Of a DNA stretch of 64,000 nt, positions 50,295 to 57,990 are shown piece after piece. Source of the DNA: Faecalibacterium sp. I3-3-33 (GTDB lineage Bacteria > Bacillota > Clostridia > Oscillospirales > Ruminococcaceae); assembly GCF_023347295.1 (NCBI RefSeq), contig NZ_CP094469.1, positions 2,356,001 through 2,420,000 on the forward strand. The letters run 5' to 3'. Both the position numbers and the translations under genes were made by a program. Each line of letters begins with the position of its first letter. Within the stretch, counting starts at the first letter, position 1. Under the pieces are notes generated by a model that was given only the letters and a program-made list of their open reading frames with translations, was not told the origin of the DNA and did no database searches.

Positions 50295-50606
50295 TACAAT
50301 GCAGACAATAAAAGCGTTGACCGGGAAAAGTAAGGCCTCAGGTTTTTCTTGCAGAGAGCGCGGGACGGTGGAAACCGCGCAGAAAACGAAGCCCGAAGAA
50401 CACCCGTGAGCCGCTCCCTGAACCTGCGTGTGCAGCAGTAGGGGCAGACGTGCGCCGCTCGTTATCGCGGCAGTGCTTTCAACGGGGAGAGCGCACAAAA
50501 GTGACCGGCGTATTGCGTATGCCGGTAATTTAGGTGGCACCACGGATACGGCAGCATATTCGTCCTAGGACTATGGGATGAATGTGCTGCCGTATTTTTA
50601 TTTTTA
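50272..50606 (+). promoter_or_regulatory. asparagine T-box leader
   Basis: Promoter TTGACA (50272-50277), 17 bp, TACAAT (50295-50300), partly inside the Fur gene. Stem I base CGGG (50322-50325) with AGTA-type loop AAAAGTA just after; the partner arm CCCG (50403-50406) is preceded by AAC A (50399-50402), so the specifier is Asn. T-box TAGGTGGCACCACGG (50531-50545) with TGGC for a GCCA tRNA end. Terminator stem ATACGGCAGCA / TGCTGCCGTAT followed by TTTTTATTTTT. Confidence 0.9.
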
Positions 50607-54703: not shown

Positions 54704-54863
54704 TTGCAAATATGCGGGTTTTGTGGTATGCTGTAAGTGCCGCTTCGGCGGTGAAAAGGCGCTGATTGCATAATCGGTGGTCTAGCTCCTTCCGGCTGCG
54801 CGCCAGAGGGGACGAAAAACTTTTTGCTTCCCCTGACGCGAAAGCGGAAAGGGGGGATGCTTC
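54704..54863 (+). promoter_or_regulatory. promoter and structured leader of small hydrophobic peptide 1
   Basis: -35 TTGCAA (54704-54709), 17 bp, -10 TATGCT (54727-54732). The leader of about 125 nt carries GTGCCGCTTCGGCG, then GCGCTGATTGCATAATCGG, GGTGGTCTA and TCCGGCT. A long stem AGGGG...CCCCT (54813-54840) lies before the SD. The CCCC arm could instead pair with the SD GGGGGG (54851-54856). Upstream, 54662-54699 is a hairpin AACTCCCGG/CCGGGAGTT. Confidence 0.75.
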
Positions 54864-54965
54864 ATGACGTTTGAACAGGTCGTGTTGCTGCTCACGCTTC
54901 TTGGCGGAGCAGTTTACATTACCTTCGAGATTACATGGACGATTTCCAACGGCAAAAAGAAATGA
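54864..54965 (+). CDS. 33-aa hydrophobic peptide, candidate type I toxin (copy 1)
   Basis: ATG 54864 with AAAGGGGGG 7 bp ahead. Peptide MTFEQVVLLLTLLGGAVYIT then FEITWTISNGKKK: one membrane helix (about 5-28) with a charged KKK tail, the shape of Fst/TxpA-type toxins and of holin-like peptides. The stop codon lies inside a two-way terminator. A paralogue with the same LLGG.(V)..T(F).I(S/T)W layout lies at 57758. Peptide, leader and antisense promoter are all conserved between copies, so it is unlikely to be a chance frame. Toxicity is inference. Confidence 0.78.
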   Translation: MTFEQVVLLLTLLGGAVYITFEITWTISNGKKK

Positions 54966-55087
54966 CCGCTCATGCCCTCAGAAAGCAAGCGGTCATTCTT
55001 TACGACTGATTAGCCGGATGAGGAGCTGACCATTGCAGTCAGCGCTCTTTCTATTCGTAGTATAGTCTATTTTTCCGGGTTTGTCAA
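54952..55087 (-). ncRNA. convergent small RNA 1, candidate antitoxin RNA
   Basis: Minus-strand promoter TTGACA (55082-55087), 17 bp, TATACT (55059-55064): consensus hexamers. The RNA would begin near 55052, form hairpin GAGCGCTGAC-TGCAAT-GGTCAGCTC, and end at the shared terminator after about 100 nt. It has no evident frame. Its 5' part resembles the 5' leader of the peptide mRNA in the same sense (GCGCTGA.TGCA...GGTC.AGCTCCT...TCCGGCT), so the module ends are inverted repeats. Confidence 0.72.
54961..54997. terminator. two-way terminator of module 1
   Basis: Stem AATGACCGCT (54961-54970) and AGCGGTCATT (54988-54997). Plus strand continues CTTTACG; minus strand continues TCTTTTTGC, a good U-tract. 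It should end both the peptide mRNA and the facing small RNA. Confidence 0.8.
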
Positions 55088-57757: not shown

Positions 57758-57868
57758 ATGGTGTTGAATGATGTTCTGCAACTGCTTGTCGTCATCGGCG
57801 GTACAGTGGGGATCACGTTTAAAATTTCATGGGCAATCTTTCAGGAGATCCATAACAATAAGAAATGA
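57758..57868 (+). CDS. 36-aa hydrophobic peptide, candidate type I toxin (copy 2)
   Basis: ATG 57758 with GGGGGGG 7 bp ahead. Peptide MVLNDVLQLLVVIGGTVGIT then FKISWAIFQEIHNNKK: one membrane helix with a basic tail, same plan as copy 1 (GG..(V/Y).ITF.I(S/T)W). The TGA lies in the terminator stem. It follows bioY divergently by 280 bp. Function by analogy to type I toxins only. Confidence 0.78.
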   Translation: MVLNDVLQLLVVIGGTVGITFKISWAIFQEIHNNKK

Positions 57869-57990
57869 CCGCCCACAGTCTCGCAAACACTGAGCGGTCA
57901 TTCTTATTGACTACTTAGCCGAAGGAAACTGACCCTTGCAGCCAGCACCCTTTCTATTTGCAGTATAGCCCATTTTGCACGAAATGTCAA
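57857..57990 (-). ncRNA. convergent small RNA 2, candidate antitoxin RNA
   Basis: Minus-strand promoter TTGACA (57985-57990), 17 bp, TATACT (57962-57967). RNA begins near 57955 with AGAAAGGGTGCTGGCTGCA, forms a small hairpin with TGCA in its loop, and ends at the shared terminator after about 95 nt. The 5' part resembles the peptide-2 leader in the same sense (GGGTGCTG.CTGCA...GGTC). Confidence 0.72.
57864..57902. terminator. two-way terminator of module 2
   Basis: Stem AATGACCGC (57864-57872) and GCGGTCATT (57894-57902); plus tail CTTATTG, minus tail TCTTATTG. The same stem sequence as module 1, with a different loop. Confidence 0.78.

Follow-up and report, generated by a model that had tools for sequence, protein, structure and literature searches.

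As reported for BsrG/SR4 of Bacillus subtilis, binding of the small RNA at a distant site lengthens the stem that hides the Shine-Dalgarno (SD) sequence from 4 to 8 nt (PMC4147584), and in par, direct repeats in the DNA make both RNAs complementary near the start codon (PMC7472228). In this study, we analyzed a 64,000-nt window of Faecalibacterium sp. I3-3-33, in which the initial annotation had described a candidate type I toxin-antitoxin module whose two RNAs seemed to overlap only at the terminator. We propose a chromosomal type I toxin-antitoxin-like module in which the leader and the antitoxin would compete for the 3′ end of the mRNA, and our confidence in this sequence-based model falls just short of even. 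The earlier type I reading fits the layout of a conserved two-gene module, whereas its restriction of the RNA relation to the terminator did not hold: a common 5′ element recurs in the leader and the small RNA (sRNA) as locus-specific, same-sense copies, and the distribution of mismatches suggests that the leader contacts the mRNA stretch opposite the sRNA 5′ half.

The locus resembles several described systems. As in BsrG/SR4, the RNAs are convergent and meet at their 3′ ends, and 3′ binding closes a distant SD, as proposed here (PMC4147584); in contrast, the leader and antitoxin of this locus share a same-sense 5′ element, of which the consulted part of the BsrG/SR4 account makes no mention. 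The likeness to par/Fst (RNA I/RNA II, of pAD1 and chromosomal) comprises a peptide some 33 aa long in which a tryptophan stands between membrane helix and charged tail, as well as convergent promoters and a shared hairpin (PMC7472228), although the plus-strand promoter here is only an 8/12 match. However, the leader and the sRNA 5′ element flank the gene as inverted repeats at the DNA level, which makes the two RNAs alike rather than complementary, and since the complementary direct repeats of par are absent, the module is not filed as par. TxpA/RatA and CD2517.1-RCd8 of C. difficile likewise combine a small hydrophobic protein, a convergent antisense RNA, and a 3′ overlap, but their toxins have 50–59 aa, and a leader-antitoxin likeness is not mentioned in the parts of these sources consulted (PMC4147584, PMC6563280). 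In hok/Sok, tisB/IstR-1, and zorO/OrzO, too, the ribosome site is masked by structures within the leader or between the mRNA ends, and the antitoxin provides a second layer (PMC5668327); in contrast, their full-length mRNA is inert until trimmed, while here the full-length 5′-3′ contact is predicted to be more open.

Table 1. Features of the module and of its second copy in the window (positions count from the first letter of the window).
Feature	Position	Strand	Basis
Putative peptide-mRNA promoter, TTGCAA-17-TATGCT, TGG before −10	54704..54732	+	8/12 match; TGG by reading
Small mRNA 5′ hairpin, CCGC..GCGG	54740..54751	+	By reading
Leader copy of shared 5′ element, AAAAGGCGCTG...GGTGGTCTAGCTCCTTCCGGCT	54754..54797	+	Same-sense alignment with own sRNA; consensus
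Leader arm a	54785..54800	+	Leader alignment; cognate a.b pairing, t −6.6, n = 50
Leader arm b	54800..54813	+	Cognate b.a (t −6.6) and b.c (t −7.7) pairing, n = 50
Leader arm c	54828..54839	+	Cognate c.b (t −7.7) and c.SD (t −7.3) pairing, n = 50; compensatory changes c.SD
SD sequence, AAAGGGGGG	54848..54857	+	By reading; conserved in leader alignment
Peptide, 33 aa, single hydrophobic segment, conserved W, K-rich end	54864..54965	+	Profile, alignment, pN/pS 0.23
Shared hairpin with T-rich flanks; sRNA terminator, possibly also mRNA terminator	54956..55001	.	Compensatory changes in conserved stem
Predicted sRNA (about 99 nt), starting near 55052	54954..55052	-	Promoter; model match 72.6 bits (sequence in model)
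Stretch opposite sRNA 5′ half, proposed 3′ partner of leader	55003..55052	+	Mismatch asymmetry; folding
Terminator-like hairpin opposite sRNA 5′ hairpin	55025..55043	+	Terminator scan (two scans)
sRNA promoter, TTGACA-17-TATACT	55087-55059	-	11/12
Second copy, peptide, 36 aa, MVLNDVLQLLVVIGG...	57758..57868	+	Profile, window reading
Second copy, predicted small RNA	57857..57955	-	Model match 69.4 bits (sequence in model)
Second copy, sRNA promoter, TTGACA-17-TATACT	57962..57990	-	Promoter scan

The 33-codon membrane peptide with AAAGGGGGG directly 5′ and the facing minus-strand promoter (11/12) were both found as the initial annotation had described them. The promoter that it placed before the peptide also exists as an element, of merely fair quality; the promoter scanner needs at least 9/12, and this 8/12 element is hence absent from the scan output. 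Similarly, the proposed hairpin with T-rich tails on both strands is visible by reading but appears in neither terminator scan. At the shared hairpin, a crude scan for terminators returned the plus strand in 25/51 and the minus strand in 32/51 loci, and neither direction at this one. Additionally, a plus-strand terminator-like hairpin at 55025–55043, which had escaped the initial annotation, is the sole one that the second scan found at the locus. The covariance-model match of the sRNA lies at G000:C1:2410954-2411052 on the minus strand (G000 being the own genome).

To describe the peptide family, we assembled 59 member loci, namely, 68 profile hits minus nine rows with spurious or duplicate starts; three of the 59 were kept despite weak profile E-values (0.046, 0.069, and 2.0) because of the look of the peptide, before the promoter scan. 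With a five-row peptide profile, 22 of the 31 genomes of the genus match at E ≤ 1, the weakest surely by chance, at up to ten places per genome, while the same profile matches 8/100 genomes of the family sample at E ≤ 0.1, strongly only in the own genome and in G055. Seven matches fall in named genomes, each of them Faecalibacterium. At E ≤ 0.001, 877 clusters were retrieved by a protein search, and among the 120 clusters listed, five are named, all as hypothetical proteins and four from Faecalibacterium. Purifying selection acts on the peptide frame (pN/pS 0.23; 12 sequences, 66 pairs). The 48 aligned peptides have 32–48 aa, a conserved hydrophobic stretch and tryptophan, and a K-rich end, as in toxins of <60 aa with a charged C-terminus. 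W25 is nearly invariant among them and stands between helix and charged tail, the signature of Fst/Ldr; the P/D/S/TXXXG motif of the membrane segment can be read as TLLGG in this peptide and is not general across the alignment. The 48 peptides gave no credible match to Pfam or NCBIfam (best E 0.031 and 0.028, to unrelated families), none to the PADLOC defence-system library, and none at E ≤ 1 to Pfam PF16935 (Hol_Tox). Of ten peptides that lie opposite related sRNAs in other genera, four matched PF16935 weakly, the best at E 0.0072 and 16.6 bits, and none reached the 23.3-bit cut-off. The module is one of a large and unnamed family of likely toxin-antitoxin modules.

The predicted sRNA facing the peptide is, by comparison of sequences, a conserved gene. 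In 51/59 member loci, the 180 nt past the stop hold an 11–12/12 promoter on the minus strand; on the plus strand, they do so in 2/59, and dinucleotide shuffles yield one in 1/590, so the facing promoter is beyond chance. By sequence, the predicted RNA would overlap the mRNA at the shared hairpin. Common to the aligned sRNAs are a 5′ element, AAAAGGYGCTG..GCAAA..GGYYAGCTCCTTACCGG, and a GACCGC..GCGGTC hairpin in which compensatory changes occur. No Rfam family exceeded the gathering threshold for the module, whether in a scan of the window or of ten relative loci, and at E ≤ 10 this locus had chance matches only. A covariance model of the sRNA matches 62 of 100 sampled family genomes at E ≤ 0.01 and 26 at E ≤ 1e-5 (counted from the table), with rough E-values and some matches being plain terminators (the loci from four of the 26 genomes, G046, G052, G105, and G118, showed no credible module). 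Among 299 phylum genomes, 13 match at E ≤ 1e-5, the own genome included. From 119 matches outside the genus, 107 were used and 12 weaker or opposite-strand ones left out; a 12/12 promoter accompanies 76 of the 107 and one of at least 10/12 accompanies 92, shares that are somewhat flattering since L102 (which belongs to the genus set), L156, and the plain-terminator-like L115–L118 and L122 were set aside. Moreover, in 77/107 the peptide opposite the sRNA has both an SD and a hydrophobic stretch, 30 of these 77 being from the tandem arrays of G093. These peptides mostly have 20–37 aa and are very unlike the Faecalibacterium type. Because they diverge while the sRNA keeps matching, the RNA is better conserved than the peptide.

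At each locus, the leader resembles its own sRNA. In the same sense, their match lies above the 99th shuffle percentile in 55/59 loci. For 51 unique loci of the genus (the 59 minus identical sRNAs and four without a readable leader, namely, L016, L054, L059, and the second L009), own pairs exceed mixed pairs with a mean z of 2.8, and 3.9% of the sRNAs of other loci fit better. A second set, from outside the genus, gave the same result (n = 77, with 30/77 from one tandem-array genome), at z 2.7 and with 7.0% of foreign sRNAs fitting better. Thus, at the level of predicted RNAs, the 5′ elements of leader and sRNA co-vary locus by locus, which is new. Outside the genus, leader and sRNA also show some cognate antisense fit (z 0.59, t 4.1), which we tentatively ascribe to the symmetry of the shared hairpin.

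The plus strand opposite the sRNA provides the one RNA complementary to both the leader and the sRNA. If the leader pairs with this 3′ stretch, mismatches are expected to leave G-U pairs, and such an excess was found. In the genus, mismatches keep leader:3′ G-U pairs at a ratio of 84:27 (32 loci vs 6), compared with 275:181 for non-cognate pairs; outside the genus, the ratios are 91:32 (45 loci vs 11) and 348:246. The bias is about twofold over the non-cognate baseline (OR 1.95 and 1.89; p about 0.003, which is optimistic as loci are related), is the same in both strand-skew classes, and peaks within the first 12 nt; in sRNA nt 28–46, the part with the CUCCUU arm, it is not above baseline (p 0.53 and 0.33). 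These flanked-mismatch counts, with non-cognate baselines and a strand-skew control, replaced a wobble-ratio permutation that was dropped because per-column asymmetry is fixed by column make-up and inflated by constant columns. Any common partner bound better by the sRNA than by the leader would produce the same bias, and the antisense window tests and arm-pairing tests turned up no other such partner. Leader contact with the stretch opposite the sRNA 5′ half would require the mRNA to extend beyond the shared hairpin. In a crude scan of 51 loci, plus-strand terminator-like sites fall about equally on the first hairpin (25) and the second (22); transcription of the mRNA may already cease at the former, and where the mRNA ends is the weak point of the model.

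To examine the leader itself, we aligned 50 rows, with L049 left out. Arms a and b, b and c, and c and the SD all pair better within than between loci (t values in Table 1), and 14 sequences carry compensatory changes at one c.SD pair; a and the SD have no such advantage (t −0.6, n = 50). Many leaders (about 54800–54826 here; also L055, L017, and L018) have a T run after arm b, ..GCTTTTTT, and a.b may double as an early terminator. Domain-swapped hairpin pairing between leader and sRNA gave no cognate signal (z +0.01) and was rejected. In folding predictions, the mean openness of the SD is 0.33 with the mRNA's own 3′ end, 0.15 without it, 0.16 with a shuffled one, and 0.20 with that of another locus. 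The own 3′ end gives the higher value in 31, 31, and 26 of 51 loci against none, shuffled, and other-locus ends, respectively, and the lower value in 1, 2, and 3; several loci, e.g., L008, L009, L011, and L046, show no effect. At this locus, the predicted openness is 0.31 with the 3′ end and 0.02 without it. The outside set (64 of 76 unique loci, with a leader-sRNA score of at least 25) points in the same direction but more weakly, with 0.21 against 0.15, 0.15, and 0.17, and the own 3′ end lowers openness in 5–8 of 64.

Based on these observations, the plus-strand mRNA would encode a membrane peptide that is probably toxic if overmade, and the minus-strand RNA of about 99 nt, judged by layout and conservation, would be the antitoxin. 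The leader may act as a switch that forms either a.b together with c.SD, which would close the SD, or b.c, which would leave it more open, with a presumed effect on translation. In the predicted folds, the leader 5′ element, including arm a, pairs with the mRNA's own 3′ stretch, leaving b.c and a more open SD. The sRNA, perfectly antisense to that same stretch, would bind it and free the leader, so that a.b and c.SD form and translation is shut; cleavage of the sRNA:mRNA duplex may come next. If the leader and sRNA compete for one 3′ stretch, they must match each other, and this is seen as co-variation and as the G-U mismatch bias.

Besides the second copy in the window (Table 1), the own genome (2.99 Mb, one contig) holds five peptide copies in all, and the sRNA model finds these five and two more at E below 1e-5. 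The two extra sRNA copies (L082 and L083; G000:C1:2033553-2033645 and 2292429-2292528) face another peptide type, MPITLTFHxFGxxFTIKV. Four modules lie in a 7-kb stretch of G002, and G093 has tandem arrays (L101, L174, L179, L181, and L186) with varied peptides, a unit spacing of about 330 bp, and up to eight units in 3.2 kb. In the genus, 23 of 30 sites upstream of a dCMP-deaminase-like gene were readable on the wanted upstream side, and the other seven were left out; the module is present in five and lacking in 18. Three of the five have this peptide type and two another peptide with the same flanks and promoters. L123, L125, L126, L128, and others represent one site with either cassette type or none, where the matching ends swap with the peptide while the promoters stay. 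Such occupancy and swaps indicate that cassettes are gained, lost, and exchanged as units. A distant search for phage or plasmid carriage returned three unannotated fecal phage records and no plasmids, which we did not take as evidence; these short records (MT838975.1, MT838730.1, and MT838111.1) match the module at 69–80% and may be bacterial pieces, the one inspected being marked UNVERIFIED.

Other explanations of the locus deserve weighing against leader-antitoxin competition. In a plain par-like module, both RNAs would end at the shared hairpin and meet via their terminator loops, the CUCCUU arm would cover the SD, and the 5′ element would be a stabilizing cap. The shared stem with its T-rich tails, the ability of the sRNA CUCCUU to pair with AAGGGG, a weak cognate signal between the sRNA arm and the SD (t −2.2, n = 50), and a layout like that described for par in the part of the source consulted (PMC7472228) all agree with this. 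However, 48 tests of mRNA windows between −150 and +105 revealed no antisense fit specific to the cognate sRNA 5′ half (t from −2.1 to +2.8), the whole sRNA body has none either (z −0.08), and a cap alone leaves the locus-by-locus matching unexplained; we regard this explanation as unlikely, while giving it some weight. Anti-SD action of the sRNA as the main contact was rejected, as start-region duplexes average little better than shuffles (−19.4 vs −17.3 kcal/mol) and are not cognate-specific, and ≤5% of shuffles are better in only 16% of 55 loci.

The matching might also be kept up without function in a toxin-antitoxin pair, if inverted repeats lying close together undergo neutral gene conversion or template switching, and the copies are indeed inverted repeats about 300 bp apart, with one site at which the whole interior is swapped with both ends (L125 and L128 vs L123). 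Yet the matching is patchy rather than tract-like: alignment columns 15, 40, and 41 match at 0.90–0.96, compared with about 0.5 expected, while the adjoining columns 42 and 45 are barely above expectation. Furthermore, a leader-only GCAGG insert persists throughout, columns 35–36 hold a fixed leader/sRNA difference, and mismatches are directional in the G-U sense regardless of strand skew, which together make neutral conversion very improbable in our judgment. Finally, the sRNA might tune a nontoxic membrane peptide, such as a stress or transporter regulator, in keeping with the lack of a match to known toxin families. The copy number (five in G000, four in 7 kb of G002, and the G093 arrays) is instead toxin-antitoxin-like, and the patchy presence at a fixed site and the diversity of K-tailed hydrophobic peptides facing one RNA family also count against a nontoxic role, which we consider rather improbable.

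Extending leader-antitoxin competition beyond the genus, we tentatively suggest, with more doubt than belief, an RNA-defined superfamily across Clostridia-like Bacillota. In it, the antitoxin RNA would be conserved and the toxin peptide freely replaced, with leader and antitoxin as rivals for the mRNA 3′ stretch; the antitoxin would in effect be a copy of the leader that pairs better and shuts the toxin off by setting the leader free. Faecalibacterium is a dominant commensal of the human gut, and hardly any small-RNA regulation in it is described within the literature searched; modules of this kind were not found there either, in a partial search that does not establish their absence from print. 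If the model is true, Faecalibacterium and many relatives hold several unannotated module copies per genome, and the antitoxin RNA, rather than the peptide, would be the handle for finding modules, including those missed by peptide profiles. The rivalry would leave a mark in the sequence, co-variation with a G-U bias, making the mechanism testable by comparative genomics; to our knowledge, such a mechanism is otherwise known from single laboratory cases. Elsewhere in the window, a T-box leader (50308–50570) lies 5′ of a gene that reads as asparagine-synthase-like.
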